Source of the DNA: Chitinophagaceae bacterium
GTDB taxonomy: Bacteria; Bacteroidota; Bacteroidia; Chitinophagales; Chitinophagaceae
NCBI GenBank assembly: GCA_004173355.1
Contig: SEAD01000004.1
Coordinates: forward strand, 1-64,000
Length of the DNA stretch: 64,000 nt
Direction: 5' to 3'
Shown: piece after piece, positions 9,501-64,000 of the stretch
Layout: each line of letters begins with the position of its first letter
How positions within the stretch are numbered: the stretch's first letter is position 1
Notes under the pieces: generated by a model
Told to the model about the DNA's origin: nothing
Database searches by the model: none
What the model saw: the letters and a program-made list of their open reading frames with translations, nothing else
Translations under genes and position numbers: made by a program

Positions 9501-10280
9501 ATGAGTTACGAGATTAAAGAGTTTGAGAAATTCAGGTATATCGAGGAAGGCGAGGGCGAACCGCTGATACTGCTCCATGGACTTTTTGGTGCATTGAGCA
9601 ATTTTTCCAGCCTCATCGATTACTTCCGGCAGTACAACAAGGTTGTGGTGCCCATATTGCCATTGCTCGAAATGGACCTACTCCACACATCTGTTGGGGG
9701 ACTGGCCAAGTTCGTGAATAAATTTGTCGAAGCAAGAGGCTACGAGAATGCACACCTCCTCGGGAATTCCCTGGGTGGGCACGTGGGTATGGTATACCTG
9801 CTCAAGAATAAACCCCCGCAGATCAAATCACTCATCCTGACCGGAAGCTCCGGCCTTTTTGAGAACGGGATGGGAGACTCCTATCCGAAGCGCGGCGACT
9901 ACGAGTACATCCGCAAAAAAACAGAACTTACATTTTTTGACCCCGCTATGGCATCCAAGGAGCTGGTGGATGACGTATTTGCTATAACGAATAACCGCCT
10001 GAAGGTTATCAAGATCATCGCCCTGGCAAAAAGCGCAATCCGCAACAACCTTGGCGAAGAGCTGAAGGAGATCACCCTTCCGACATTACTTATCTGGGGC
10101 AATAACGATACAATCACCCCGCCGTTTGTGGCACAGGAGTTCAACAAGCTGATACCAAACAGCGAACTCCAGTTCATCGACAAGTGCGGACATGCCCCGA
10201 TGATGGAAGTGCCGGATGAGTTCAATGCGATCCTTCATAAATTTTTGAAAAAACTCAACGAGCCTGCAACAGTTGCATGA
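9501..10280 (+). CDS. Alpha/beta hydrolase
   Basis: This 259-residue cytoplasmic hydrolase has a complete catalytic triad: Ser90 in the nucleophile elbow GNSLGG, Asp203 in IWGNNDTITPP and His231 in CGHAPMME. The oxyanion-hole motif LLHGLFGALSNF is at about residue 24. The fold covers esterases, lipases and C-C bond hydrolases, so the substrate cannot be named. It starts a plus-strand run (CBS protein, Omp85 protein, nadK, DUF6089, uppS, bamA) with short gaps, although several members have their own promoter-like boxes. Confidence 0.9.
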   Translation: MSYEIKEFEKFRYIEEGEGEPLILLHGLFGALSNFSSLIDYFRQYNKVVVPILPLLEMDLLHTSVGGLAKFVNKFVEARGYENAHLLGNSLGGHVGMVYLLKNKPPQIKSLILTGSSGLFENGMGDSYPKRGDYEYIRKKTELTFFDPAMASKELVDDVFAITNNRLKVIKIIALAKSAIRNNLGEELKEITLPTLLIWGNNDTITPPFVAQEFNKLIPNSELQFIDKCGHAPMMEVPDEFNAILHKFLKKLNEPATVA

Positions 10281-10313
10281 GCATTGGGGTCTAGTTGAAA
10301 AAGGAACACGCAC

Positions 10314-10976
10314 ATGTTAACCCGGGAATTACCATCGCAGACCCTTCCATACTTACGCCTTCACGATAAAGTGTACCAGGCTGTCCAGCTGATGGCCGAT
10401 CACCACGTGACCCATCTTCCGGTAACGGATGAAGGTAAATACATCGGACTGCTTGGTGAGGATGACCTCCTTCAGGCGATGGATGATGATGCCCCGGTAT
10501 TACTTCTCCAGCCACATTTCGGGAATGTATCGGTAAAGGAAGGGGAGCATTTCCTCAAAGCGGTACAGGTGGCCGCAGAAAACGCGCTCAGCGTGGTTCC
10601 TGTGGTGAATGAGGAAGGGGAACTGACCGGTACTGTGGTATACAATGACCTGCTCAAACATGCATCTGCCTTTATGAGCCTGAAAGAACCAGGCGGCCTG
10701 ATTGTGCTGGAGATGGATGGAAACCAGTACTCCTTCAACGAAATAAGTAAACTGGTGGAAATGAATGAAGCCCAGATTACCCAGCTCAATACCTCCAATG
10801 ATGCGGAAACCGGCCTGATGCAGGTAACTATCCGGATCAACAAACCGGAAGTGTCTGATATTGTTGCTACCTTCCAGCGCTACGAATACAATGTAAAATA
10901 CTATTTCGGTGAAGAACTGTTCACCAATGAAATCCGCAGCAACTACGATAACCTGATGAATTACCTTAACGTATAA
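10314..10976 (+). CDS. CBS domain pair protein with ACT-like C-terminus
   Basis: The 220-residue protein has two CBS motifs (about residues 8-60 and 75-128: MADHHVTHLPVTDEGKYIGLL and NALSVVPVVNEEGELTGTVV), which form a Bateman module that binds adenine nucleotides. The remaining ~85 residues (GGLIVLEMDGNQYSF through MNYLNV) resemble an ACT-like regulatory domain. There is no enzyme domain, so it probably works as a soluble nucleotide or energy sensor acting on a partner. Genes of this type sit next to nadK in many Bacteroidota; here the Omp85 gene lies between them. Confidence 0.85.
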   Translation: MLTRELPSQTLPYLRLHDKVYQAVQLMADHHVTHLPVTDEGKYIGLLGEDDLLQAMDDDAPVLLLQPHFGNVSVKEGEHFLKAVQVAAENALSVVPVVNEEGELTGTVVYNDLLKHASAFMSLKEPGGLIVLEMDGNQYSFNEISKLVEMNEAQITQLNTSNDAETGLMQVTIRINKPEVSDIVATFQRYEYNVKYYFGEELFTNEIRSNYDNLMNYLNV

Positions 10977-11048
10977 CAGGTTTTTCGCTTGTCCACATGG
11001 ACAGTCTTTAAAATCCCCTAAATTACCGGTCCGGTTTGTCACTTGTAA

Positions 11049-12527
11049 ATGCAGAGGCTCTGTAAATACTGTCTTTGGCTTTCATTAGCGCTGCTCTGCT
11101 GTCAACACCTGACTGCGCAGGACACGATCCCCGTTGAAAAAAAAGACCGGCCCCATGAGAAAAAAGAGAGGCTGAATCCGGAACCGGAAACATACATCCT
11201 TACCCCGGAAGACAGGCCCTTTACTGTGCGGGATATCGTCATTGAAGGCAACAGGAAGACAAGACCTGAAATCATTACCCGTGAGATTTCTTTCAAACGC
11301 GGCGACAAGCTCCTGCTGCAGGACCTGGTAAAACGTTTTGAGTTTGCCCGCCGCCAGCTGATGAACACCACCCTTTTCCATGAAGTAACGGTAGCCCTGA
11401 AAAGTTTTGACGGGTATGAAGTGGATGTACTGGTGGTAGTTCGTGAACGCTGGTATATTTTCCCCTTACCTTACTTCAAACCGGTGGACAGGAACCTCAA
11501 CCAGTGGCTGTTTGAGCAGGATGCAAGCCTGAAGCGGGTTAACTATGGTGCAAAGGTATTGTGGAACAACTTCAGCGGAAGGAATGACAAGCTGCGGCTC
11601 TGGGCCATCCTTGGTTACACAAAACAGTTCCAGTTCAGCTACGACCGCAAGTATATCGACCGGGCAATGAAATGGGGGGCGAATATCAATTTCTCCACGG
11701 GCAACAACAAGGAAGTCAATTATAATACGATCGGTGATAAACAGGTGTTCCTCCGCAATGAAGGCAATAACCTTCGCAACTTTACTTCGGCCTCGGCGCA
11801 GCTGACCTACCGGAAAGCGATCCGCACCATCCATCGTTTTGGCTTTGCCTATACCTGGGAGCGGCTGGCTGATACGGTGATCAAGGAGAATCCGGAGTAT
11901 TTCCATAACCGGAGCAACAAGGTCCAGTTTCCCGAATTCACCTATAACCTCAATTACCTCAATCTTGATTACAACCCTTATCCCACACGCGGATATGCAC
12001 TGGACCTGCTTCTCAGCAAAAAGGGGATCGACCGCGCCATGAATTCCTGGCAGGCATCGGTGCAGGCACTGGGTTACTGGCCAACCAGCAAACGGTCCTT
12101 TTTCAGCGTCAACCTTTTTGGCTCTATCAAGGTGCCGTTTTCACAGCCCTATTATAACCGCAGGCTGCTGGGATACGGTGATGTGTTTATGCAGGGTTAT
12201 GAATACTATGTGGTGGACGGCGTGGCCGGGGGGTATGTCAAGGCTTCCTATACCCGCAAGATGCTCAGCTTCGGCTTCAATATCCCGGGCACTAAAAAAA
12301 TAGCACCGCAGCGGATCCCGATAAATATCTACGGCCGCGTGTATGGAAATGCGGGGTATATTTATAACCCGGACCAGGGTGACAACTTCCTCGCAAACAA
12401 AATGCTTTATTCCACCGGGGTGGGACTGGATATCACCAGTATCTATGATTTTACCCTGAAGATAGAATGGTCATTTAACCAGTTAGGGCAAAACGGGATA
12501 TTTTTGCACCGCAAAACGATTTTCTGA
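11049..12527 (+). CDS. Omp85-family outer membrane protein (BamA/TamA-like, short POTRA region)
   Basis: The 492-residue protein starts with a signal peptide (about 1-23, ending LTAQ). A charged linker is followed by a POTRA-like domain (about 58-135, VRDIVIEGNRKTRPEIITREISFKRGD ... VVVRERW). The rest is a beta-barrel rich in alternating aromatic strands, with YPTRGYALDL and an aromatic C-terminus (LHRKTIF). The family inserts or translocates proteins across the outer membrane. It is shorter than the BamA encoded 3 kb downstream (911 residues) and has only about one POTRA domain, so it is likely a specialised paralogue instead of the main assembly factor. Confidence 0.85.
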   Translation: MQRLCKYCLWLSLALLCCQHLTAQDTIPVEKKDRPHEKKERLNPEPETYILTPEDRPFTVRDIVIEGNRKTRPEIITREISFKRGDKLLLQDLVKRFEFARRQLMNTTLFHEVTVALKSFDGYEVDVLVVVRERWYIFPLPYFKPVDRNLNQWLFEQDASLKRVNYGAKVLWNNFSGRNDKLRLWAILGYTKQFQFSYDRKYIDRAMKWGANINFSTGNNKEVNYNTIGDKQVFLRNEGNNLRNFTSASAQLTYRKAIRTIHRFGFAYTWERLADTVIKENPEYFHNRSNKVQFPEFTYNLNYLNLDYNPYPTRGYALDLLLSKKGIDRAMNSWQASVQALGYWPTSKRSFFSVNLFGSIKVPFSQPYYNRRLLGYGDVFMQGYEYYVVDGVAGGYVKASYTRKMLSFGFNIPGTKKIAPQRIPINIYGRVYGNAGYIYNPDQGDNFLANKMLYSTGVGLDITSIYDFTLKIEWSFNQLGQNGIFLHRKTIF

Positions 12528-51277: not shown

Positions 51278-52009
51278 ATGACTATGAAAGAAATTTTAAA
51301 AACCGCGCAGGCTGAGAAAAACAGCCACCTCGATTACTTCAATATTGCGATTTCGGTCGACTGTGTGATCTTCTGTTACGAAGACCGCGAGCTGAAAGTG
51401 CTGACGATGCCATCGGACCTGAAGGAATTTGCCGGGCTCCCTTCATTGCTGGGTGACCTTGTGCGTCCCGATGAGGATCTGGATTCAGCATCGTACCGCG
51501 TATTGCTGGAGCGTACGGGTATGGAAGATGTATACCTCGAGCAGGTGCACACATTTGGTTCCATTGGCAGGCACCCTTCCGGCCGCGTAATCACTACCGC
51601 TTATTATGCCCTGATCGATATCAAGCACCAGCACCTGAAGCTGGGGAACAAGCTGCTGACCTGGCAGCGGGTGAAGGACCTGAAAAGGATGGCCTTCGAC
51701 CACAAGCCGATCCTGGATACCTGCCTGATCAGCCTGCGGGAAAAAGTGATGGACCAGCCGGTGGTTTTCAACCTGCTGCCCGAGAAGTTTTCCCTGCGTG
51801 AACTGCAGGAGCTGTACCAGTCGATCCTCCTGGTTGAACTCGACCGCCGGAATTTTCGGAAGAAGATCGGGATCAAGGACTGGCTGCTGGACCTTGATGA
51901 GATGGAAGTGGACGTCCCCCATAGACCCGGCAAGTTATATAAGGTAAAACCGGAAATCCGCCGGCGAACTGCTGCCCGTCGTCCGGGTTCCCTGATGATG
52001 AGGGACTAG
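51278..52009 (+). CDS. Nudix-fold transcriptional regulator (NrtR/AraR-like)
   Basis: The 243-residue protein has an N-terminal Nudix-fold domain (about 20-150) and a C-terminal winged-helix domain (about 158-243, LLPEKFSLRELQELYQ ... RRNFRKKIGIKDWL). In the Nudix box (59-81) the catalytic RExxEExG is degraded: RVLLERTG, so the metal-binding Glu residues are largely lost. This combination defines the NrtR/AraR group of non-hydrolytic regulators, which sense a nucleotide-like or sugar effector and control neighbouring genes. It lies directly upstream of a susC/susD/ASPIC locus, on the same strand. The effector is unknown. Confidence 0.88.
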   Translation: MTMKEILKTAQAEKNSHLDYFNIAISVDCVIFCYEDRELKVLTMPSDLKEFAGLPSLLGDLVRPDEDLDSASYRVLLERTGMEDVYLEQVHTFGSIGRHPSGRVITTAYYALIDIKHQHLKLGNKLLTWQRVKDLKRMAFDHKPILDTCLISLREKVMDQPVVFNLLPEKFSLRELQELYQSILLVELDRRNFRKKIGIKDWLLDLDEMEVDVPHRPGKLYKVKPEIRRRTAARRPGSLMMRD

Positions 52010-52390: not shown

Positions 52391-55381
52391 ATGCTTGCCA
52401 GAAAACGTCCAGGGTCCCTCCTGGGTTTTGTGCTGCTATTACTCTTCCCGGCAGCTGTCTTCGCCCAGAACAAAACAATCACCGGAAAAGTCACTGATTC
52501 AAAAAATGCGCCTGTGGCGGGAGCGAGTGTTGTAGCTAAAGGCTCAACAACCGGTACTTCCACCAATGCAAGCGGGGATTTCACCCTTCTTGTGCCTGAA
52601 GCAATCAACACCCTCGTTGTCTCTTCAGTAGGTTTTACGTCCATCGATGTGGACATCACCGGTAAAAGCTCCGTGGAAATCAGCCTGGCTGATGCGGCCA
52701 CCAATGACCTCAACGAGGTTGTGGTTATCGGTTATGGTACTGCCCGCAAACGGGACCTTACCGGTTCGGTTGCCACGGTAGGCTCAAAAGATTTTAACAA
52801 GGGTGTGTTCACCGCACCCGACCAGCTGATCCAGGGTAAGGCAGCCGGTGTACAGGTATTAAACAACAGCGGCCAGCCCGGTGGTGGTACTACGGTAAGG
52901 ATCCGTGGTAACTCTGCGCTTACCGGTAGCGGCCAGCCTTTATATGTGGTCGATGGTATTCCTCTCGATGGCCGTTCTTCCCGTCCGGGTCTGAGTGGTC
53001 CGAACCTGGGTAACTCACCTGGTACCAACCCGCTCAACTTCCTCAACCCCGCAGACATCGCCAGCATGGACATCCTGAAGGATGCTTCTGCCACAGCGAT
53101 CTACGGTTCACGTGCCGCTTATGGTGTGGTCCTCATCACAACCAAGAAAGGCCAGTCCGGCCAGCCGAAAATTGACTTTGGTGCATCAGTAGGTGTGTCT
53201 TCAGTAATGCGGAAAATCGACGTACTCGATGCTTCCCAGTACCGTGCGGCGCTGACCTATTACGGTGCTCCGGGTACCAACGACAAAGGATCCAGTGTGG
53301 ATGCTTTCGACGAAATCACCCAGAAGGCCCTGCTGCAGAACTACAACGTAGCGATCAGCGGTGGAAACGAAAACGGCCGTTACCGTTTATCAATGAGTGT
53401 ACTGGACCAGGAAGGCGTGGTGAAAAAGACCGGCTTCAAAAAGTACACCGCCAACTTCAGCTCAACATTTAAATTCCTCGAGAGCAAACGTCTCGGTCTT
53501 GATATCAATGTTATCCCTAGCCAGACTATCGAAGATCTTGCGCCGATCAGTAACAACGCGGGTGCAACCGGTAGCCTTATCGGCCACGCTTTACAGTGGA
53601 ATCCGACAGAAGCACTTTATGATGCAAACAATCCATCGGGCTTCAATATCAAGGCCGGTGACATTGTAAACCCGGTTGGTATGCAGAATGCGTACAACGA
53701 CCGCGCGAAGACCACAACGATCCTCGCAAGCATCTCCCCTTATTTCAAAATCACCAATTGGCTGGAATACCGTCTCCTTTACAGTATCAACTACGGAACC
53801 GGTAACCGTCGTGCATCCATCAAACAATACATCAACCTTGCTGATGTGCTGAACAGGGGATGGGCCAGTATCGCCAACAACGAACTGATTACCCAGCAGG
53901 TTACACACACACTCAACCTGAACAGGGAAATTGCCCCGGGCCTGAACCTGAGTGCACTTGCCGGTTTCGAGTACATGAAGTACACCAACAAGGGTAGCAG
54001 CATGAGCGGATTCGGACCATCTGCGGGTGGTTTTGGCCAGTATGGCCTCGACTACACTGATTACATCCAGTACTCAAACTCTACTACACGTAATATCGGT
54101 TCGTTCTACGATCCGCTGACCGAACTGCAATCTTACTTCGGTCGTGTGGGTCTGAACTACAAAGACAAATACCTGCTGACTGCGACCATACGTGCTGACG
54201 GATCTTCCAAGTTCGGTGCGGATAATAAATATGGTTACTTCCCTTCTGCAGGTGCAGCATGGAATATCAGCAACGAAGAATTCTTTACCAAGGGTTTTGT
54301 GAACACACTGAAACTCCGCGCTGGCTGGGGTAAAGTAGGTAACCAGGAATTCCCTGCGGGTTCTTCACTGGAAACCTATTCACTCGGAAACAACGGTTCT
54401 TCAGGACAATCAAACAACCCGAACCCCGCGCTGAAATGGCAGTCTGACCGCCAGTACAACGTAGGTGTTGATTTCGGCCTGATGAAAGGTCGCATCACCG
54501 GTTCGGTCGATTACTTCAACAAACGCACAACTGACCTCCTGTTCCCAACCTTCCCGATCCAGCCTGCACCTCCGGGTACAGTGGTTACCTGGAAAAACCT
54601 GGATGGTAACATCGACAACAGTGGTGTGGAAGTAACCATCAATGCGAACCTCGTTAACAAGAAAGACTTCAGCTGGGATCTCGGAGTGTTTGCCACTTTC
54701 CTTGACAACAAGGTTGAAGGACTGGCAGCACCAATCTTCACCGGTGAGCTGAACGGCCAGGGTGTGAGCGGTACATTTGTGCAGACCATCCAGAATGGTT
54801 TACCGATGAACGCCTTCTATACCCGTGACTTCCAGGGCATCGATCCGCAGACCGGCCAGGCGATTTATGCCGACGGTGGTAGCTCGTTCTTCTATGTAGG
54901 CAACCCGAATGCACGTACACTGCTCGGTATCAGCACTACAGTGAATTACAAGAAACTTGCACTCACAATCAACATGAACGGTTCGTTCGGACAGGATGTA
55001 TATAATAACACCCTTAACAACGTAATCAACGTAGGTAGTATCAATGGCGGTCGTAATATCGCTGTTGAGAATTATGAAGCATCAATCAAAGAGGCGCTGT
55101 CAAACCCGGTAACATCTTCTTCAAGGTTTATCCAGAAAGGCAGCTATATGAAAATGGCCAACGCCACTTTCTCTTATTCACTTGGCAATGTTGGGAAATC
55201 ATTCAAGGGTGCAAACATCTTCGTGACCGGCCAGAACCTGTTTGTGCTGACCGACTTCACCGGATTTGATCCTGAAGTAAACGTCGACAAAAACCTGAAC
55301 GGTGTTCCTTCAGTTGGTATCGAGTACACTCCTTACCCATCAGCAAGGACAATCACACTCGGTGTAAATTTCTCCCTCTAA
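52391..55381 (+). CDS. SusC/RagA family TonB-linked outer membrane transporter (second locus)
   Basis: The 996-residue transporter has a signal peptide (1-25, ending VFAQ), a CarboxypepD_reg-like domain (KTITGKVTDSKNAPVAGASV ... ISLADAATNDLNEVVVIGYG), a TonB plug (GKAAGVQVLNNSGQPGGGTTVRIRG, PLYVVDGIPLDG, SMDILKDASATAIYGSRAAYGVVLITTKKG) and a barrel closing LGVNFSL. It imports a substrate captured by the SusD protein encoded 22 bases downstream. Arg codons are mostly CGT/CGC, unlike the neighbouring lipoprotein genes, suggesting high expression. The substrate is unknown, with no enzyme in the locus. Confidence 0.95.
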   Translation: MLARKRPGSLLGFVLLLLFPAAVFAQNKTITGKVTDSKNAPVAGASVVAKGSTTGTSTNASGDFTLLVPEAINTLVVSSVGFTSIDVDITGKSSVEISLADAATNDLNEVVVIGYGTARKRDLTGSVATVGSKDFNKGVFTAPDQLIQGKAAGVQVLNNSGQPGGGTTVRIRGNSALTGSGQPLYVVDGIPLDGRSSRPGLSGPNLGNSPGTNPLNFLNPADIASMDILKDASATAIYGSRAAYGVVLITTKKGQSGQPKIDFGASVGVSSVMRKIDVLDASQYRAALTYYGAPGTNDKGSSVDAFDEITQKALLQNYNVAISGGNENGRYRLSMSVLDQEGVVKKTGFKKYTANFSSTFKFLESKRLGLDINVIPSQTIEDLAPISNNAGATGSLIGHALQWNPTEALYDANNPSGFNIKAGDIVNPVGMQNAYNDRAKTTTILASISPYFKITNWLEYRLLYSINYGTGNRRASIKQYINLADVLNRGWASIANNELITQQVTHTLNLNREIAPGLNLSALAGFEYMKYTNKGSSMSGFGPSAGGFGQYGLDYTDYIQYSNSTTRNIGSFYDPLTELQSYFGRVGLNYKDKYLLTATIRADGSSKFGADNKYGYFPSAGAAWNISNEEFFTKGFVNTLKLRAGWGKVGNQEFPAGSSLETYSLGNNGSSGQSNNPNPALKWQSDRQYNVGVDFGLMKGRITGSVDYFNKRTTDLLFPTFPIQPAPPGTVVTWKNLDGNIDNSGVEVTINANLVNKKDFSWDLGVFATFLDNKVEGLAAPIFTGELNGQGVSGTFVQTIQNGLPMNAFYTRDFQGIDPQTGQAIYADGGSSFFYVGNPNARTLLGISTTVNYKKLALTINMNGSFGQDVYNNTLNNVINVGSINGGRNIAVENYEASIKEALSNPVTSSSRFIQKGSYMKMANATFSYSLGNVGKSFKGANIFVTGQNLFVLTDFTGFDPEVNVDKNLNGVPSVGIEYTPYPSARTITLGVNFSL

Positions 55382-55403: not shown

Positions 55404-56981
55404 ATGATACGCAAAGCATTATTAGTCGCTGCCTTACCGCTGGCATTTGTCAGCTGTACCAAGCTCGACGAGGAATTTAAAGGCTCACTCGCCCCTGACC
55501 AGGTAGGTGGTGGAGCAATCGATGTGGCTGCCCTTCTCCGTGGTACCTACAACTCGATGCAGACCAACTTCCAGGACCAGTCATTTATCTATGCCCTTAC
55601 CGAAATGTCAACCGATGAACTGATCGGGCCAACCCGTGGTCCGGACTGGGATGATAACGGTGTATGGCGTGTAATCCATGAACACAAATGGGATGCGGAA
55701 AATACCCGTATCCGGGATACTTATAATAACCTGCTCGGTACTGTGTACTCTGCTACCAACCTGCTCCAGTTCAGCCCATCGGCCCAGCAGGCGGCGGAAG
55801 CACGACTGCTCCGTGCTATTTCCAACTTCTACATCCTTGACCTCTACGACCAGACTCCATACCGCGATCCGGGTGAATCCACCCTGGAAGCTGCACGTGT
55901 CCGTAAAGGCGCAGAAGCATGGCAGTTTATCGTTGATGAACTGAACGAAATCCTGCCTAACCTGCCGGATGGCCCGAAAGGTACCGCGAACAAAAACGCA
56001 GCAAGGGTACTCCTGATGAAGATGTACCTCAACAAAGGTGTTTGGGCATCTACCGAACAAAGGAATGCACCAACTTTTGACGCGGCGGACATGAACCAGG
56101 TAATTGCCCTGGCGGATGTGATCATCAATTCAAACCTCTATTCATTTACCCCTAACTTTTTCGATAATTTCTCTCCCAACAACAGTACACTGGGTACGGA
56201 AAACATCTTCACCCGTGTGAATGATGTGGGTGTATCAGGAAGCACCGGCGCAACGGTACGCGCATTCTGGCACGCCGGCCTGCACTACAATATGAATCCG
56301 TCCGGATGGAATGGTTTCTCTACACTGACTGACCTGTACAACCGTTTTGAAGCAACCGACAAGCGCCGTGGTGCTTCGTACAACCAGGTGGGTGGTCCGG
56401 CTAACCCGGGCAACCGCATCAACGTAGGTATCCTCACCGGTCAGCAGTATAACCTGGCAACGGATGCCCCGCTGACTAACCGCGCAGGTGCACCACTGGT
56501 ATTCACGCCCGATGTTAACCTGATTGAAACGGATGTGAACACACTGGAACAAACCGGATACCGTGCCTACAAATACCCGATCGATTACGTAAACACTGGT
56601 GACGGTAACGTTGGCAATGACTATGTATTTTTCCGTCTCGCCGACGTCCTGCTGATGAAGGCTGAGGCAATCCTCCGTGGTGGTACAGGAACTGTTGCCG
56701 GCGTATATGGCAGCACCCCGCTCGCACTTGTGAACTCTATCCGTACACAGGTATCCCGTGGCGCAAGTGCCCTTGCATCGGTTGACCTGGACGTATTACT
56801 GGATGAAAGGTCAAGGGAACTGTATCTTGAGTCATGGAGAAGGCAGGATCTGATCCGCTTCGGTAAATTCCTCCAGCCTTTTGGTAAAAAAGGGCAGAGT
56901 GATCCGAAGTACCTGGTTTATGCGATCCCTAACCAGCAACTTGCGGTGAATCCAAATCTTACACCGAACCCCGGTTACTAA
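55404..56981 (+). CDS. SusD/RagB family surface lipoprotein (second locus)
   Basis: The 525-residue lipoprotein has a lipobox Cys at 18 (LAFVSCTKLDE). Helical TPR-like regions follow (YNNLLGTVYSATNLLQF ... EARLLRAISNFYILDLYDQTPYRDPGE), then YFFRLADVLLMKAEAILR-like FFRLADVLLMKAEA and LLDERSRELYLESWRRQDLIRFGKF, both typical of SusD. It covers the SusC barrel and binds ligand at the surface. Arg codons are mainly CGT as in the susC gene. A strong terminator follows, separating it from the ASPIC lipoprotein genes. Confidence 0.95.
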   Translation: MIRKALLVAALPLAFVSCTKLDEEFKGSLAPDQVGGGAIDVAALLRGTYNSMQTNFQDQSFIYALTEMSTDELIGPTRGPDWDDNGVWRVIHEHKWDAENTRIRDTYNNLLGTVYSATNLLQFSPSAQQAAEARLLRAISNFYILDLYDQTPYRDPGESTLEAARVRKGAEAWQFIVDELNEILPNLPDGPKGTANKNAARVLLMKMYLNKGVWASTEQRNAPTFDAADMNQVIALADVIINSNLYSFTPNFFDNFSPNNSTLGTENIFTRVNDVGVSGSTGATVRAFWHAGLHYNMNPSGWNGFSTLTDLYNRFEATDKRRGASYNQVGGPANPGNRINVGILTGQQYNLATDAPLTNRAGAPLVFTPDVNLIETDVNTLEQTGYRAYKYPIDYVNTGDGNVGNDYVFFRLADVLLMKAEAILRGGTGTVAGVYGSTPLALVNSIRTQVSRGASALASVDLDVLLDERSRELYLESWRRQDLIRFGKFLQPFGKKGQSDPKYLVYAIPNQQLAVNPNLTPNPGY

Positions 56982-57000
56982 CCAATACCAACATATCGTC

Positions 57001-57035
57001 GCAAAAGGCCATCAATCGATGGCCTTTTGCTTTTT
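57001..57035 (+). terminator. Rho-independent terminator after the second susD
   Basis: Perfect 12-bp stem GCAAAAGGCCAT/ATGGCCTTTTGC, 6-base loop, five T. It would separate susC/susD transcription from the following ASPIC/VCBS genes, or act as a partial terminator. Confidence 0.9.
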
Positions 57036-57130: not shown

Positions 57131-60100
57131 ATGAATTATTGCCGGATGAAATTCACTTGTTGCTCCCTCCTGCTGCTTCTCCTTCTCTCCTGCAACCAGA
57201 AGGAAAAACCTAAACTGTTTGACCTGGTCACCGATTCCGGGATCAGTTTCAATAATACCGTTACCGATGGGAAAGATGAAAACAGCTTTTACTACCGAAA
57301 CTATTACAACGGGGGTGGTGTGGCAATCGGCGATATCAATAACGACGGTCTCTGCGATGTGCTGATGACGTCCAATATGGGCAGCAGTAAACTTTTCCTG
57401 AATGAAGGCAACTTCAAATTCAGGGATGTCACTGCGGGTTCAGGTATCCGTCAGGACAGCATGTGGAACACCGGTGTAGTCATGGCGGATATCAATAGTG
57501 ATGGATGGCTGGACATTTACGTGTGCAGTGCCGGACACCTGCTCGATGGCAACCGCCGCAACAAACTTTACATCAACAACCAGAAAGGCGGCTTTGTGGA
57601 ATCCGCCGCACAATACGGGCTCGATATCAAATCATTCAGCACACATGCCAGCTTCTTTGACTATGATCTCGACGGGGACCTCGATTGTTTCCTGATCAAC
57701 AACAGTCCCATTCCCGTGAATACCCTCGGACATGCCAACCGCCGCGATGTGCCCGATTCGCTCTGGCAGATCGCCTCACTGTTCCGCGGCGGGGGCGACC
57801 ACCTCTACCGCAACGACAACGGCCGGTTCACGGAAGTCACCCAGCAGGCAGGAATTCACGGATCACTGATCAGCTTTGGCCTTGGCGTATCAGTTGGCGA
57901 TCTTAACAGTGATGGTTACCCCGATGTTTACGTCTCCAATGATTTTTATGAACGTGATTACCTCTATATCAACCAGCGGGATGGTACTTTCAGTGATGAA
58001 ATGGAATCGCGGATGGAACAAAACAGTTTTGCTTCCATGGGTGCCGATCTCGCCGATATCAATAACGACGGGTACATGGATGCTTTTACCACCGATATGC
58101 TGCCGGATGACGACAAACGCCTGAAGACCCTGGGCGCTTTTGATAATATCGATCTCTATAATAACCGCATCCGGCTTGGCTTTTACCACCAGTTTACCAA
58201 AAACTGCCTGTATGTAAATAACCGCGAGGGCAAGTTTATCGAAAGTGCCTACTATAGCGGTGTGTCGGCCTCCGACTGGAGCTGGGGTGCGATTTTCTTC
58301 GATGCCGATAATGATGGACGCAATGATATCTATGTCTGCAACGGGGTTAACCGCGACGTGACCAATCTCGATTTCATGGACTTTTTTGCCAACGACATCA
58401 TCCAGCGGATGGTGGCATCGGGACAAAAAGAAAACGTGGATTCGGTGATTGCAAAAATCCCGGTGCATGCCGTGCCCAATAAAGTATTCCAGAACCGCGG
58501 GGGCCTCCGCTTTGAGGATGCGGGTAAGGAATGGGGGATGGACCAGCTCTCTTTCTCCAACGGGGCGGCCTACGGGGACCTGGACAATGACGGCGATCTT
58601 GACCTGGTGGTCAACAATGAAAACATGGAGTCGTTTGTTTACCGGAACAACAGCCGCGAACAGAACAAACACAATTATATCAGCGTGATGCTGAAAGGCG
58701 AAGGCAAAAACAGTTTCGCCGTCGGCGCCAAGGTGACGATCTACAGCAAGGACTCGGTATTCATGCGGGAAGTGATGCCCAGCAGGGGTTTCCAGTCGTC
58801 CAGCGATTATAAACAGGTAATCGGGCTGGGTACACTGACGGCAGTGGATTCGATGGTTATTACCTGGCCTGACCGGACTTACAGCCATTTCCCCAAACCG
58901 CAGCTGAACAAGCTCCATATGATCGAACAGGGAAAACAGCAACGCTATCCCGTTGTGTATCCCCCGCCGCCTGATCTTTCCAGGGCATTGTTTATCGAAC
59001 AGCCGGTGGCCATGGAAGCGCACCGGGAAGACGATCATATCGATTTCTATTACGAAAGGAATATACCCGAATTGCTTTCCCGCGAAGGGCCGGCGATGGC
59101 AACGGGTGATGTAAATGGTGACGGACTCGATGACCTCTATGTCGGGGGTGCACATAACCAGCCCGGACAACTTTACCTGCAGCTGGCCGCTGGCGGCTTT
59201 GCGCGCAACCAGCAGGCGATCTTTGATGAGTTTGCACGGTTTGAAGATGTAACCGCATTGTTTTTTGATGCCGACCGGGATGGTGACCTGGACCTCTTTA
59301 TCGGTGCAGGAGGCAACAATGTGGAAATGGGGATGCGCGAACTGGAACACCGGCTTTATATGAATGACGGGCAGGGGAATTTCAGTCTCGACACCAAAGC
59401 CTTCCCGAGCAACAATATGAATATTGCCACCGCAGTGTCGGCGGATTTTGACGGCGATGGTGATCCCGACCTGTTTGTCGGGGCGCGCAGCCAGCCATAC
59501 AACTACTCGAGGATCCCGCAGAGTTACCTGTTGAGCAATGATGGCAAAGGCCATTTCACGGACGTGACCGCCCAGATGGCCCCAGCACTGAAAGCGATCG
59601 GGATGGTAACCGCGGCCGACTGGGGGGACCTGGATAAAGATGGACTGCCCGAACTGATCGTGACCGGTGAATGGATGAGCACACATGTATTTTCATTCAA
59701 CAGGAAATCCGGCAGGATGGAGGAGTGGAAAAAAACCGGTCTGGAAAAACTCAAAGGCTGGTGGAAGTCAGTGAAAGCTGCTGACCTGAATGGCGATGGT
59801 TTTGCGGACCTGGTGATCGGGAATATCGGGCAGAACTTTTACCTCCGCCCCAACCAGGACCAGGCGGTGAAGTTCTGGGTAAATGACTACGACAACAATG
59901 GCAACACAGAAGGGTTTCTCACCCGCACAATCGCCGGCAAAAGGGATGTACCGGTTTTCCTGAAACGTGAAGTGACCGACCAGTTCCCCGCATTAAAAAA
60001 ACAAAACCTGAAACACGAAGACTTCGCAGGCAAAACGATCCAGGAATTATTCCCTGCCGCCCTGCTGGATAAATCACGCGTCGAGGAATTCAACTATACT

Positions 60101-60496
60101 TCATCCGTTGTTGCGATCAATGATGGCAAGGGTGGGTTCACCATCACTGAATTGCCCCAGCAGGTCCAGCTTTCGAGTGTCAACAGTATTTATATTGCCG
60201 ACGTGAACCAGGACAAAACACCCGACCTGATACTCGGGGGAAATATGTTTACGTTCCAGCCACAGTTTGGCCGGCTGGATGGCAGTTACGGCCATGTGCT
60301 CGCGAATGACGGGAAAGGGACGTTCAGTGCGCTGCCGTATGCACAATCCGGGATCCAGGTAAGGGAGCAGATCCGCAATATTGCCACCCTGAAAGGCAGG
60401 GACCGCAACTATCTTGTGATGGTACGCAACAATGCAACCCCGAAAGTGTACGAGGTCAATAACAAATCGGCCTGGTTAAAATCTACGTCCAGGTAA
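57131..60496 (+). CDS. Giant surface lipoprotein: FG-GAP/VCBS repeats with central ASPIC/UnbV domain (first of two)
   Basis: The 1,121-residue lipoprotein has a lipobox Cys in LLLLSCNQKEK (start at ATG 57131; ATG 57146 is possible). Fourteen calcium-type motifs of the DxNxDGxxD kind occur in order: seven before (DINNDGLCD through DLDNDGDLD) and seven after (DVNGDGLDD through DVNQDKTPD) a central ASPIC/UnbV domain (about 515-590, VGAKVTIYSKDSVFMREVMPSRGF ... VITWPDRTY). Two FG-GAP-type beta-propellers are the likely fold. Such proteins often accompany SusC/SusD systems, but no activity is known; the label RNA-binding protein sometimes given to the family is unsupported here. It follows susD's terminator and has its own promoter-like box. 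Confidence 0.88.
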   Translation: MNYCRMKFTCCSLLLLLLLSCNQKEKPKLFDLVTDSGISFNNTVTDGKDENSFYYRNYYNGGGVAIGDINNDGLCDVLMTSNMGSSKLFLNEGNFKFRDVTAGSGIRQDSMWNTGVVMADINSDGWLDIYVCSAGHLLDGNRRNKLYINNQKGGFVESAAQYGLDIKSFSTHASFFDYDLDGDLDCFLINNSPIPVNTLGHANRRDVPDSLWQIASLFRGGGDHLYRNDNGRFTEVTQQAGIHGSLISFGLGVSVGDLNSDGYPDVYVSNDFYERDYLYINQRDGTFSDEMESRMEQNSFASMGADLADINNDGYMDAFTTDMLPDDDKRLKTLGAFDNIDLYNNRIRLGFYHQFTKNCLYVNNREGKFIESAYYSGVSASDWSWGAIFFDADNDGRNDIYVCNGVNRDVTNLDFMDFFANDIIQRMVASGQKENVDSVIAKIPVHAVPNKVFQNRGGLRFEDAGKEWGMDQLSFSNGAAYGDLDNDGDLDLVVNNENMESFVYRNNSREQNKHNYISVMLKGEGKNSFAVGAKVTIYSKDSVFMREVMPSRGFQSSSDYKQVIGLGTLTAVDSMVITWPDRTYSHFPKPQLNKLHMIEQGKQQRYPVVYPPPPDLSRALFIEQPVAMEAHREDDHIDFYYERNIPELLSREGPAMATGDVNGDGLDDLYVGGAHNQPGQLYLQLAAGGFARNQQAIFDEFARFEDVTALFFDADRDGDLDLFIGAGGNNVEMGMRELEHRLYMNDGQGNFSLDTKAFPSNNMNIATAVSADFDGDGDPDLFVGARSQPYNYSRIPQSYLLSNDGKGHFTDVTAQMAPALKAIGMVTAADWGDLDKDGLPELIVTGEWMSTHVFSFNRKSGRMEEWKKTGLEKLKGWWKSVKAADLNGDGFADLVIGNIGQNFYLRPNQDQAVKFWVNDYDNNGNTEGFLTRTIAGKRDVPVFLKREVTDQFPALKKQNLKHEDFAGKTIQELFPAALLDKSRVEEFNYTSSVVAINDGKGGFTITELPQQVQLSSVNSIYIADVNQDKTPDLILGGNMFTFQPQFGRLDGSYGHVLANDGKGTFSALPYAQSGIQVREQIRNIATLKGRDRNYLVMVRNNATPKVYEVNNKSAWLKSTSR

Positions 60497-60527
60497 CCGG
60501 ACGCTCACGTTACAGAAAAAGCTATCA

Positions 60528-63500
60528 ATGGGATCGAAGAACAATATATCATTTGCAGGGATGATGAATACTTTAACGGCCGGACTGAAAATTATCCCGC
60601 TTGGGCTGACCGTCGTGGCGATGCTGGCATCCTGTAAAAACAATAAAGACGCCTCATCTGCCCCGTTGTTTGTGGCGCTCGACAGTAAACGGACCGGACT
60701 CGACTTCAGCAATAATCTAAGTTACAACCAGCAGTTCAACCTTTTCAAATACATCTATTTCTACAATGGCAGCGGGCTGGGTGCGGGGGATTTTAATAAT
60801 GACGGACTGACCGACCTGTTTTTCGGGTCCAATCAGGGCTCCAACAAAATTTACCTCAACAATGGCGGCTTGAAATTCCGGGATGTGTCGAAGGAAGCCG
60901 GCATTGTAGCGGATGGCGGGTGGACCACCGGTATTTCAGTCGTGGATATTAATAATGATGGCTGGCTGGATGTGTACATCAGTCGCGTCGGCCAATACGA
61001 AATCCTGCACAGCAGTAACCTGCTGCTGGTTAACCAGGGACTGGATAAAAACGGTATACCCCAGTTTAAGGAAATGGCGAAAGAGTATGGGCTTGATTTT
61101 TCAGGGTTCAGCACACAGGCAGCTTTCCTCGATTATGATGTGGATGGCGATCTCGACATGATCCTGCTCAACCACTCTGTCCATGAGAATGGCACATTCA
61201 AGCCACGCGGGAATTTCCTTGGTACCTACCACCCGCTTTCCGGTGACCGTTTTTACCGTAATGATGGCGGGAAGTACACCGATGTGACCCACGAGACCAT
61301 GATCAACAGCAGCGCCATCAGTTACGGGCTGGGTATCGCCATATCGGATATCGATCTCGATGGTTATCCCGATATGTATATCGGTAATGATTTCCATGAA
61401 AACGATTACCTCTATATCAACCAGCGGAATGGCACGTTCCGCGAGGAAGGGGAGGAGCGCCTGCAACATACCAGCCAGTACTCGATGGGTGTGGATGTGG
61501 CAGATATAAATAATGACGCCTATCCCGAAATCATTTCGATGGATATGCTGCCCGAAGATCCCTATATCCTGAAGCGCTCCCTTGGAGAGGACGCCTATGA
61601 TATATTCAAGTTCAAGATCGGCGCGGGTTATTCCCATCAGTACACGCGGAACAACCTTCAGTACAACCGGCGCAACGGGAGTTTCAGTGAAATCGGCCTG
61701 TACAGCGGCGTGGCCGCCACGGATTGGAGCTGGGCGCCGCTCTGGGTTGATTTTGACAACGATGGTTACAAAGACCTGTTTATTTCCAATGGCATCCCCA
61801 AAAGGATGAATGATATGGACTACATCAATTTCGTTTCCAATGCGGAAATCCAGCAGCGGATCCAGGGCAACAATATGCAGGAGAAGGACCTTGCACTGAT
61901 CAACAAGTTTCCCGAAATCAAATTGCCCAACCGATTTTACCGGAACAACAGGAACCTTTCGTTTACCGATGAGAACAGTCGTATCGATGGGCAGGAAGCG
62001 AGTTTTTCCAATGGGGCGGTGTATGCCGACCTGGATAATGATGGCGACCTCGACATTGTGGTGAATAATATTGATGCAACCGCAGTTGTCTATGAAAATA
62101 AATTGCAGCGTACGGATTCCACGGCATCGGCAAGGATAACGTTGAAAGGACAACCTGGGAATATCAATGCGGTAGGGGCGAAAGTGGTGCTTTACCAGGG
62201 CGCCGAGGTGCGGACCTATGATAAATCACCCGTGCGTGGGTTTATGTCGAGCATGGAAGTGCCGATGCTGGTTGGTTATGATAAACGCAAGGTGGATTCA
62301 ATGGTACTGGTTTGGCCCGACAACAGTTGCCAGACCTTTACGCCGATTGATTCCGGGCTCACAAAAATCATTTACCAGCCAGGCCTCCGGAAATTTGACT
62401 ACCAGCAGTTGAAGGACCGCAGCCGTGATTCGATTGCAGTGGCCTATGATGTCACCCAAAATTCCGGACTCGATTACCAGCATAAGGAAAATTACTTTGT
62501 GGAGTTTGACCGCGAACCACTGGTGCCACATATGTTGTCTACCGAAGGTCCGGCCATCGCGGTAGGTGATATCAATAACGATGGACTGGAGGATATTTAC
62601 TTCGGTGGTGCCCGGGATGGGAAAAGCGGTGTGTACCTGCAGACCGCCGCAGGCAGATTCAACCGTGTCCCGCAGCCCCGGCTTGACCTCGACAGTGTGT
62701 ATGAAAATACGGATGCCATTTTTGTGGACCTCAACAATGATGGCTTCCGCGACCTGGTGGTGGCAAGCGGCGGTAACGAATTCTACGGGGCGGACTACCA
62801 CAATATGCCGCGTGCGTATATGAATGATGGTAAAGCTGTTTTCAATCTTGTACCAAAGGCTTTCGGCAACACCCTGCTGACTGCATCCTGTGTGGTGGCG
62901 AACGATATCAACGGTGATGGATTTGCCGACCTGTTTATCGGTGCACGGGCAGTGCCATATGCATTCGGGCAAACCCCTTCATCCTATTTATTCCAGAACG
63001 ACGGCAAAGGTCATTTCACCGATGTGACGGCGAAGTATATGCCGGCTGTAAAAGACCTGGGTTTTGTAACCAATGCCAGCTGGGCGGATCTTGATAAAAA
63101 TGGCAGGGCCGACCTCCTGGTCTCACTGGAATGGGGAGGGCTGTATGCCTTTATGGAAAAGGACGGGAAGTATACAAAAGAAGTACTGACAGATAGAAGT
63201 GGCTGGTGGAATTTTGTGTTCCCGTATGATATCGATAACGACGGTGATCTTGACCTGGTAGCAGGTAACCTTGGGTTGAACAGCCGGCTGACAGGTTCAG
63301 CCGAACATCCCGTACGGATGTACTACAACGATTTTGATGGCAATGGCCGGAAGGAACAGGTGATGACCTATTATTTGCAGGGACGTGAGTTGCCATTTGC
63401 CAATAAGTCGGAACTTGAAAAACAGATCCCCCCGCTGAAAAAGAAATTCCTGTATGCCGAGGACTTCGCCAAGGCTTCGCTGGAGGATTTATTCGGGGCG

Positions 63501-63902
63501 GAAAAACTGAAGGGTGCCACGGTATTGAAAGCTGATTATTTCGCCAATGCTATCTTGGTCAATGATGGCAAAGGGAAGTTTGAAGTGCGGGCAATGCCTG
63601 CGGAGGCGCAATTTACCCCCTTCCGGGATGCCGCGATCACAGATGTAAACAATGACAGGCTTCCTGATATCCTGTTGTTTGGTAATTACTACGACAATAA
63701 TATCCAGATGGGCAGGTACGATGCCGATGGCGGAACCGTGCTGGTGAATAAAGGAGGGGGAAATTTTGAAGCCCATCCATTGAATGGCCTGACCGTGCAT
63801 GGGCAGGTGAGGCATATCCGGAAGATCACGGTTGGTGGCAGGGAAACATTTGTGCTGGCAAGGAATAATGACAGCACGAAGCTGATCCGTTTTGATCAGT
63901 AG
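60528..63902 (+). CDS. Giant surface lipoprotein: FG-GAP/VCBS repeats with central ASPIC/UnbV domain (second of two)
   Basis: The 1,124-residue paralogue of the preceding gene starts 31 bases after it. It has a lipobox Cys in VVAMLASCKNN, the same order of seven calcium-type motifs (DFNNDGLTD ... DLDNDGDLD), an ASPIC/UnbV domain (VGAKVVLYQGAEVRTYDKSPVRGF ... LVWPDNS) and seven more (DINNDGLED ... DVNNDRLPD). Both proteins also share a non-repeat segment (residues about 950-1010; here LKKKFLYAEDFAKASLEDLF) between motifs 13 and 14. The pair looks like an old tandem duplication. Function is unknown. Its last codons (LIRFDQ) lie inside a 39-bp tandem repeat. Confidence 0.88.
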   Translation: MGSKNNISFAGMMNTLTAGLKIIPLGLTVVAMLASCKNNKDASSAPLFVALDSKRTGLDFSNNLSYNQQFNLFKYIYFYNGSGLGAGDFNNDGLTDLFFGSNQGSNKIYLNNGGLKFRDVSKEAGIVADGGWTTGISVVDINNDGWLDVYISRVGQYEILHSSNLLLVNQGLDKNGIPQFKEMAKEYGLDFSGFSTQAAFLDYDVDGDLDMILLNHSVHENGTFKPRGNFLGTYHPLSGDRFYRNDGGKYTDVTHETMINSSAISYGLGIAISDIDLDGYPDMYIGNDFHENDYLYINQRNGTFREEGEERLQHTSQYSMGVDVADINNDAYPEIISMDMLPEDPYILKRSLGEDAYDIFKFKIGAGYSHQYTRNNLQYNRRNGSFSEIGLYSGVAATDWSWAPLWVDFDNDGYKDLFISNGIPKRMNDMDYINFVSNAEIQQRIQGNNMQEKDLALINKFPEIKLPNRFYRNNRNLSFTDENSRIDGQEASFSNGAVYADLDNDGDLDIVVNNIDATAVVYENKLQRTDSTASARITLKGQPGNINAVGAKVVLYQGAEVRTYDKSPVRGFMSSMEVPMLVGYDKRKVDSMVLVWPDNSCQTFTPIDSGLTKIIYQPGLRKFDYQQLKDRSRDSIAVAYDVTQNSGLDYQHKENYFVEFDREPLVPHMLSTEGPAIAVGDINNDGLEDIYFGGARDGKSGVYLQTAAGRFNRVPQPRLDLDSVYENTDAIFVDLNNDGFRDLVVASGGNEFYGADYHNMPRAYMNDGKAVFNLVPKAFGNTLLTASCVVANDINGDGFADLFIGARAVPYAFGQTPSSYLFQNDGKGHFTDVTAKYMPAVKDLGFVTNASWADLDKNGRADLLVSLEWGGLYAFMEKDGKYTKEVLTDRSGWWNFVFPYDIDNDGDLDLVAGNLGLNSRLTGSAEHPVRMYYNDFDGNGRKEQVMTYYLQGRELPFANKSELEKQIPPLKKKFLYAEDFAKASLEDLFGAEKLKGATVLKADYFANAILVNDGKGKFEVRAMPAEAQFTPFRDAAITDVNNDRLPDILLFGNYYDNNIQMGRYDADGGTVLVNKGGGNFEAHPLNGLTVHGQVRHIRKITVGGRETFVLARNNDSTKLIRFDQ

Positions 63903-64000
63903 CAAGGACAGTAAATCCTGGTGATTCGTTTTGATCAGGAGTAAGCACAGTAGATCCTGCTGATCCGTTTTGATCAGTAATAGGGACAGTAGATCCGTGT
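63882..64000. repeat. 39-bp tandem repeat overlapping the end of the second ASPIC gene, running off the window
   Basis: Three units with an exact 39-bp period start at 63882, 63921 and 63960; the last is cut or drifts at the edge. Each has the inverted repeat CTGATC-CGTTTT-GATCAG (first half GTGATT in unit 2) and a second block like GGACAGTAGATCC. The first unit includes the final codons and stop of the gene; later units keep the CGTTTTGATCAG sequence but carry stops in frame. Confidence 0.85.

Follow-up and report, generated by a model that had tools for sequence, protein, structure and literature searches.

Introduction

β-Propellers with Dx[DN]xDG motifs at their blade tips have been described as calcium blades, and cartilage acidic protein is counted among them (PMC3123361). 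Four examples listed in that survey, integrin, PilY1, Psathyrella lectin and rhamnogalacturonan lyase, hold one to three such sites each. In CRTAC1 (PDB 9ETN), an FG-GAP propeller is followed by an ASPIC/UnbV domain, and the 551-residue chain has one propeller. The ASPIC domain of CRTAC1 has reportedly been described as transthyretin-like. A different kind of assembly is found in the levan and dextran utilisomes of Bacteroides thetaiotaomicron, which hold SusC and SusD (SusCD) together with two further lipoproteins; one of these binds glycans at the cell surface and the other is a glycanase (PMC7618045).

Here we analyse a stretch of 64,000 nucleotides (the window) from a Chitinophagaceae bacterium (GenBank assembly GCA_004173355.1, contig SEAD01000004.1, positions 1 to 64,000 of the forward strand), in which the genes of two giant lipoproteins, A and B, follow susC and susD. 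A and B resemble the calcium-blade proteins in the predicted position of the motif at blade tips, but carry 14 motifs per chain on two predicted propellers, and one of these motifs most likely belongs to an insert. The locus resembles the utilisomes in encoding four outer-membrane components, although the two additional lipoproteins are here paralogous predicted double propellers. Propellers joined to ASPIC, calcium blades and SusCD-associated lipoproteins are already known. Among the top-listed results of our searches of open-licence literature, we found no description of the double-propeller layout, of its linkage to SusCD or of its linkage to haloperoxidase genes, and no test of the function of the operon; such proteins are named there by domain only. 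Our results suggest that SusC-SusD-A-B is a conserved operon of Bacteroidota that probably serves uptake, with A and B as its additional lipoproteins, in which calcium would act as a structural brace.

Motif layout of the two giant lipoproteins

Protein A is encoded by the open reading frame at 57131..60496 on the plus strand (1121 amino acids, aa) and protein B by that at 60528..63902 on the same strand (1124 aa). A has the lipobox LLSC with a nearly invariant Cys21, and Cys36 of B is invariant in our alignment A3. The pattern D.[DN].[DN]...[DE] was found 14 times in each protein, at residues 68, 120, 177, 257, 309, 391 and 483 and then 660, 713, 772, 833, 885, 919 and 1024 of A, and at residues 88, 140, 202, 274, 326, 408 and 501 and then 681, 734, 793, 854, 901, 935 and 1039 of B. 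Seven motifs thus lie on each side of the Pfam UnbV_ASPIC domain (cut-off 23.4 bits), which was detected at residues 530-595 of A with 62.6 bits and at 548-607 of B with 36.3 bits. A sequence-only reading of this DNA had proposed the same layout, with the motifs in the same order in both proteins, and the pattern count and the position of the domain agree with it. When Gly was required at position 6 (D/E at 9), 13 motifs were left in A and 12 in B. Chance origin of the motifs was excluded by shuffling each protein 2000 times, which gave means of 0.44 (A) and 0.42 (B) motifs and never more than 4. A and B are 40% identical in an alignment that runs nearly end to end, so that their common motif order reflects common descent.

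To place these counts in a family, we used orthologous loci, namely the best 80 of 160 loci found by similarity to A (P0001); the shared context of these loci is not that of an independent sample. Their 158 long proteins, counted without the two of the window, the second copies at L004 and L009 and five cut paralogues from the window's own genome, have 14 motifs in 73 cases, 13 in 63, 12 in 10, 15 in 8 and 11 in 4. By our own pattern, a lipobox is present in 77 of the 91 A proteins and in 50 of the 67 B proteins. NCBIfam offered no model for A and one sub-threshold model for B. An open frame of 598 aa at 57890-59686 on the minus strand, antisense to gene A, was judged most likely to mirror the coding of Asp/Asn-rich repeats and was rejected as a gene.

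The side-chain ligand positions D1, D/N3, D/N5 and D/E9 are intact in all 14 motifs of both proteins. DINNDAYPE (motif 5) and DVNQDKTPD (motif 14) had been regarded as decayed, so that not all motifs would bind calcium; they keep D1, N3, D5 and D/E9 and have lost only Gly6, which is not known to be a side-chain ligand. In a set of 119 relatives, the number of proteins that retain all four positions of a motif ranges from 69 (motif 11, the lowest) to 119, with motif 5 at 119 of 119 and motif 14 at 102; in a second set of 56, they are kept in 43 (motif 14, the lowest) to 56. Motif columns are also more conserved than the remaining columns (3.16 against 2.19 bits). Since the ligand positions are kept in A, B and relatives, we rejected the view that the two motifs are a sign of lost calcium sites.

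Predicted folds

To examine the folds of A and B, AlphaFold2 models were built on 119 and 101 sequences, respectively. The model of A has a mean predicted local distance difference test score (pLDDT) of 93.4 and a predicted template modelling score (pTM) of 0.93; the values for B are 92.0 and 0.91, and both models are confident along most of the chain. Folds were compared by VIA-align, in which a family missing from the match lists is not thereby excluded. Residues 28-602 of A were placed on murine CRTAC1 (9etn_A) with Z 39.7 over 456 residues at 2.4 Å and 23% identity, and residues 43-631 of B with Z 39.0. The following part matched the EPTP domain of LGI1 (PDB 5Y31, 9KZC), with Z 31.9 for residues 617-1110 of A (322 of 330 residues at 2.5 Å) and Z 30.4 for residues 635-1123 of B (320 of 330 residues at 2.7 Å). 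LGI1 EPTP is seven-bladed, and its blade 7 combines one strand from the N-terminal end with three from the C-terminal end (PMC5906670). The second propeller of A and B is predicted to share this closure, but the identity to EPTP is 8-13%, so that the likeness is one of fold and does not imply a common function.

From the CRTAC1 and EPTP matches, each chain is predicted to consist of a CRTAC1-like unit and a second seven-bladed propeller. In A, propeller 1 would have seven blades with motifs 1-7 and a blade 7 closed by the N-terminal strand 30-32 (57218..58648, plus strand; from the strand list and the CRTAC1 match). The ASPIC/UnbV β domain follows at residues 513-600 (58667..58930, plus strand), where the Pfam hit and the strands fall inside the CRTAC1 alignment, and propeller 2 spans residues 618-1110 (58982..60460, plus strand). 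The corresponding parts of B, all on the plus strand, are a predicted propeller 1 with motifs 1-7 at 60669..62099, the ASPIC/UnbV β domain at 62127..62387 and a seven-bladed propeller 2 at 62430..63896. Two seven-bladed propellers per protein had been proposed before; both confident models and the CRTAC1 and EPTP matches support this predicted number. No other blade number, single continuous propeller or solenoid appeared in the predicted structures, and we rejected the last two on the models and fold matches of both proteins. ASPIC, on the other hand, had been seen as a joiner between the propellers. It aligns with propeller 1 as one unit on CRTAC1 (residues 28-602 of A), suggesting that it is packed with the first propeller.

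Because they have a second propeller behind ASPIC, A and B are, on the basis of the models, a variant of CRTAC1-type proteins and not CRTAC1 itself; they also differ from it in being bacterial lipoproteins encoded in a SusCD operon. The propellers of integrin alpha chains are likewise made of FG-GAP blades with Dx[DN]xDG calcium-type motifs, and our profile A2 matched alpha-V (E 5e-10), but the Pfam scan of A and B shows no integrin leg domains.

A probable insert in the second propeller

The sequence-only reading had taken each motif to stand for one blade. This agrees with propeller 1 of A, where each of the seven motifs lies between the first and second strands of its blade in the strand list. 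Propeller 2 follows the rule only in part: motifs 8-11 and 14 lie in regular blades, and the closing blade (1081-1109 plus the N-terminal strand 621-624) has no motif. Motif 12 lies between strands 880-884 and 893-897, and motif 13, just 34 residues further on, is in a hairpin (913-918 and 927-934) that runs into helices at 945-980. The usual third and fourth strands of the motif-12 blade are found at 993-997 and 1003-1007, joined by the turn NDGKGGF, which is the usual signature between these strands (C and D). With seven blades in propeller 2, residues 898-992 can only be an insertion into the motif-12 blade. Motif 13 is then most likely part of this insert, with the closing blade free of motifs. 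The insert is assigned to 59822..60106 (plus strand) in A, from strands, couplings and spacing, and by strands and homology to residues 914-1007 of B (63267..63548, plus strand). Such an insert is in keeping with propeller 1 of A, where blades 3, 5 and 6 also have long loops between the second and third strands.

An eight-bladed propeller 2, with motifs 12 and 13 in different blades, is improbable. The strand list of A does supply strands for eight groups, and a score that sums couplings along antiparallel diagonals gave no distinction between the topologies: it was 0.68 for the second strand of the motif-12 blade with 993-997, 0.30 for the same strand with the first hairpin strand and 0.59 for the second hairpin strand with 993-997, against a background mean of 0.66. 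However, in mean-field couplings from 214 sequences, strand 893-897 pairs best with 993-997 (mean z of the top three 4.15, compared with 1.17 and 1.37 for the hairpin strands), the C-D signature lies at that place, and the best fold match is the seven-bladed EPTP domain, nearly all of which is aligned in both proteins.

In every one of the 56 aligned proteins, those of the window included, motif 12 and motif 14 are 129-144 residues apart, so that no relative without the insert was found in this sample. This bears out the proposal of a non-repeat segment between motifs 13 and 14. In the helical part of the segment, conservation does not exceed that of an average column (2.04 bits, compared with 2.28 for the whole alignment).

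A conserved SusC-SusD-A-B operon

In the window, a SusC/RagA-type TonB-dependent outer-membrane transporter (52391..55381, plus strand; TIGR04056, 664 bits against a cut-off of 368) and a SusD/RagB lipoprotein (55404..56981, plus strand; PF07980, 80.2 bits) are encoded ahead of A and B. The same order recurs in orthologous loci, with SusC and SusD directly upstream of the giant genes in 62 of the 69 loci that have more than 2 kb of upstream sequence. The seven exceptions include L031 and L047 (SusCD about 3 kb off) and L066 (SusCD on the other side). Two or more giant genes stand in tandem in 64 of 67 loci with 3.5 kb past the first one; a looser rule gave 70 of 73, and the stricter count is used here. 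The gap between giant genes has a median of 1 bp and is at most 60 bp in 83 of 92 cases.

The linkage was also examined across the phylum by a PF07593 search of 99 genomes, of which 41 were positive and 25 had long ASPIC frames. Sixty loci were picked by hand from the list, long frames first and short ones after; some are from the same genus (four from g20) and hence not independent. Leaving aside L142 (a long frame with too few motifs) and frames labelled odd, a same-strand SusD gene was present within 8 kb upstream in 22 of 32 loci with double-propeller proteins and in 1 of 27 with single-propeller proteins (Fisher 1.3e-7). Two or more double-propeller genes were present in 15 of the 32. The single case of SusD beside a single-propeller protein is L161, where the two genes directly adjoin. 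The window's own genome has nine ASPIC matches: further long ones at L092, L093 and L095 lie beside SusCD, L091 and L094 are near contig ends with no SusCD in view, and L096 is single.

Just upstream of susC, a probable regulator of the NrtR/AraR winged-helix type is encoded at 51278..52009 on the plus strand (PF21906, 74.8 bits). A related gene precedes 7 of the 80 orthologous loci (cluster 8, of which one member was scanned).

A terminator-like hairpin precedes gene A

Between susD and gene A, at 57001..57030 on the plus strand, lies a terminator-like hairpin of 13 pairs followed by a T run, whose stem is also found in other SusD-giant gaps. In a survey limited to gaps of 20-400 bp, a like hairpin was present in 48 of 65 SusD-giant gaps (including that of the window), compared with 0.8% of shuffled gaps, and in none of 17 giant-giant gaps longer than 20 bp. 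Among the first 20 SusD-giant gaps, 16 have the stem and 15 of these 16 have GG(C/T)CAT in it, as does the stem of the window. The simplest reading is that the hairpin controls read-through and holds A and B below SusCD, and the stem with its recurring GG(C/T)CAT arm may serve these operons as a common regulatory element. Given a terminator-like hairpin ahead of their genes, A and B are probably made in smaller amounts than SusCD.

Origin of the double-propeller layout

To trace the layout, a tree was built from the N-terminal halves of 50 double- and 29 single-propeller proteins, by a quick method and without a root; several of the single ones have long branches. The double proteins were drawn from half of 55 in new loci, every 9th A orthologue and every 7th B orthologue. 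The double and single layouts lie on opposite sides of one branch, with a support of 99 in the Shimodaira-Hasegawa-like approximate likelihood ratio test. This split suggests that the 7-ASPIC-7 layout most likely arose once, as judged from these sequences. The single-propeller bacterial ASPIC/UnbV proteins (~500-770 aa) are similar in having 7 motifs and ASPIC, mostly as 7+0, but differ from the double ones in their place on the other side of the branch and in the rarity of a nearby SusD gene. L162 was considered as a single-propeller relative with the reverse order (0+7) and rejected, since Pfam places its ASPIC at 532-598, which shows 7+0.

A (P0001) and B (P0002) fall into two old clades with supports of 100 and 99. 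At L127, L130 and L133, the upstream giant belongs to the A clade and the downstream giant to the B clade, and two of the three giants of L139 sort likewise, indicating that the tandem A-B pair is old. Some loci have two A-type genes before B and others have B-A-B, suggesting that the pair expanded more than once; these expansions were seen at L011, L012, L018, L021, L024, L026, L029, L030, L032 and L046, and at L067, L070, L073, L075 and L076.

Sugar genes and the proposed role of A and B

The genes past B encode a glycoside hydrolase family 65 (GH65) enzyme, two PAP2 proteins, a TonB receptor, a LacI regulator, a major facilitator superfamily (MFS) transporter and a trehalase. Directly after the operon, the GH65 gene (L090:4980-7013) matches the kojibiose hydrolase model with 1207 bits against a cut-off of 800. 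The GH65 cluster recurs in 19 orthologous loci, and 17 of 17 scanned GH65 proteins (16 complete ones and that of the window) match the model at E up to 0.001, with scores over the cut-off seen for two. Flavobacteriaceae-type loci have other sugar genes nearby, encoding an MFS protein with a sub-cut-off sucrose symporter match, a PfkB kinase and GH32 or GH13 (one representative of each was scanned). The kojibiose hydrolase of F. johnsoniae works in a branched-dextran locus with SusCDE, and the gene list in the available part of that source is without a double propeller (PMC10316084). The kojibiose hydrolase, the trehalase and the other sugar genes beside the operon point to alpha-glucosides as cargo, with differences between lineages.

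We propose a model in which each giant protein would begin with a CRTAC1-like unit, a seven-bladed calcium-motif propeller packed with ASPIC, and continue with a second seven-bladed propeller. There, a conserved insert of one blade would bear a further calcium-type loop (motif 13), and the strand that follows ASPIC would close the last blade. By analogy with the extra lipoproteins of known utilisomes, A and B would most likely be at the cell surface beside the SusCD transporter, probably as parts of one complex with it and in lower abundance, where they would capture the SusCD substrate or hand it on to the transporter. Calcium, if bound, would brace the edges or tips of the blades instead of carrying activity, and the cargo at the window's locus would most likely be an alpha-glucoside of the kojibiose type.

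Several observations weigh against this model. SusD was not found by our own profile at 10 of the 32 double-propeller loci of the phylum sample, nor among nine neighbours scanned at five of these SusD-less loci, whose neighbours are varied (L147 has a sulfatase and a sub-threshold GH99 match). The Pfam scan of A and B gave FG-GAP families, ASPIC and a sub-threshold PliI only, with no SusE/SusF-type or known carbohydrate-binding domain. Loops on the face presumed to hold the ligand show no significant excess of conservation over the C-D loops (p 0.36 and 0.056). The surface-export signal known for lipoproteins in this phylum is Asp/Glu-rich behind the lipid cysteine; residues +2 to +6 of the giants are Lys-rich with some Asp/Glu. 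The sugar genes differ between lineages, so the cargo may differ. Plain sugar capture also leaves unexplained the haloperoxidase gene that, in loci of the Flavobacteriaceae type, is coupled directly to the giant genes.

The two proteins might instead be surface enzymes, with one or both propellers catalytic, that trim the substrate before import by SusCD. The locus encodes disaccharide-splitting enzymes, and no dextranase family or other endo-acting glycosidase was found among the ten downstream proteins scanned, which do not cover every downstream reading frame; another factor may therefore cleave at the surface. The fold matches of propeller 2 include aldos-2-ulose dehydratase, an enzyme that converts sugars (Z 29.0 and 30.0), and invariant polar or aromatic residues lie outside the calcium motifs (N270, D271, E274, W383 and W385). 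However, a propeller fold alone is no proof of activity, LGI1 and many non-enzymes match equally well or better, and no catalytic signature was identified in either protein. We consider an enzymatic role unlikely.

Two further features were observed next to the operon. Proteins of ~300 aa with a hydrophobic N-terminus adjoin it in many loci (cluster 1 in 27 and cluster 3 in 18; L090:3974-4900, minus strand, at the window's locus). Members of the two clusters are only 11-16% identical, and for three members scanned at E up to 1, no Pfam family scored above its cut-off. A tandem array of a 39-base unit in 3.3 copies runs across the end of gene B (window 63883-64000 and on to L090:4009); for a 121-base stretch of the array, folding is somewhat better than for shuffled sequences (z -2.1).

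A haloperoxidase gene beside the operon

The two PAP2 genes of the window's locus, at L090:7801-9288 and 10233-11894, lie ~4 and ~6 kb past the end of gene B and encode vanadium-haloperoxidase-like proteins, with Pfam scores of 22.7 bits (below the cut-off of 27.2) and 52.8 bits. We built a profile, A5, from 23 PAP2 proteins encoded beside giant genes. In these PAP2 proteins, the columns that we take to be the vanadate site (K, R, SGH, R and H) are invariant or nearly so. A5 matched PDB 4cit, named as a vanadium-dependent haloperoxidase, with E 3.7e-226; 4USZ, listed with the same sequence, is the Zobellia iodoperoxidase (PMC5064120). Of 49 orthologous loci, 26 have a haloperoxidase gene downstream of the giants in the same orientation, and in 19 of these it is within 150 bp. 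The other 23 show none, some of them offering as little as 1.5 kb of sequence. In the phylum sample, 9 of 32 double-propeller loci (one with the gene on the opposite strand) and 1 of 27 single-propeller loci have it (p 0.016).

In the 99 genomes, A5 matched at 41 places, of which 16, including the window's own locus, were strong (>350 bits). Ten of the 16 have a long ASPIC frame within 10 kb, compared with 0.24 expected, a strength that is inflated by the origin of the profile. A long ASPIC frame was present in 13 of 13 genomes with a strong match and in 12 of 86 without. Among the 25 weaker places, only two have a long ASPIC frame within this distance; each of the two corresponds to the second haloperoxidase at the window's locus. 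The weak matches G077:C2:232687 and G093:C14:21146 are ~750-aa frames 2-3 kb from single-propeller ASPIC frames (compare L169).

This neighbourhood raises the question of whether SusCD, A and B act with the Zobellia-type vanadium haloperoxidase on halide-linked chemistry or another small molecule, the sugar genes hitch-hiking or supplying oxidant. The match to 4cit and the recurrence of the gene in both samples favour such a role, as may the iodine uptake of Arenibacter C-21, which requires glucose, oxygen and calcium (PMC5064120). Several points argue against it. The profile's origin biases strong matches towards giant genes, and the weaker places near long frames are confined to the window's own locus. 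Nearly half of the orthologous loci examined show no such gene downstream. In addition, sites of the haloperoxidase type may also belong to phosphatases. A halide-linked role thus appears quite unlikely.

A more elaborate possibility, to which we give little credence, is that SusC-SusD-A-B and the haloperoxidase form a distinct outer-membrane machine and not a usual polysaccharide locus. A and B, as old paralogues braced by calcium, would then make up a heteromeric platform on SusCD and link chemistry that depends on sugar to the haloperoxidase. If true, this would account for the dependence of iodine uptake on glucose, oxygen and calcium in a marine flavobacterium, and Zobellia-type haloperoxidases would gain a genetic partner that is unnamed in the literature surveyed.

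Discussion

Least probable of all is that A and B are adhesins that use integrin-like propellers on surfaces, cells or matrix and share only their expression with SusCD: FG-GAP repeats are listed with adhesion-related domains of marine flavobacteria (PMC2668756) and profile A2 matches integrin alpha-V, but the conserved SusC-SusD-giant order and the near-zero gaps between giant genes argue for a shared machine, and Pfam finds neither a cell-wall domain nor a type 9 sorting tail in A or B, whereas the single-propeller relative L162 has such a tail.

We thus favour the reading of A and B as probable further lipoproteins of a SusCD uptake operon. If it holds, one class of SusCD transporter would include, as a regular component, a double-propeller family of single origin, and the operon would be a ready target for co-purification. 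The recurrent haloperoxidase neighbour would then be a concrete lead to the role of Zobellia-type iodoperoxidases in these bacteria.

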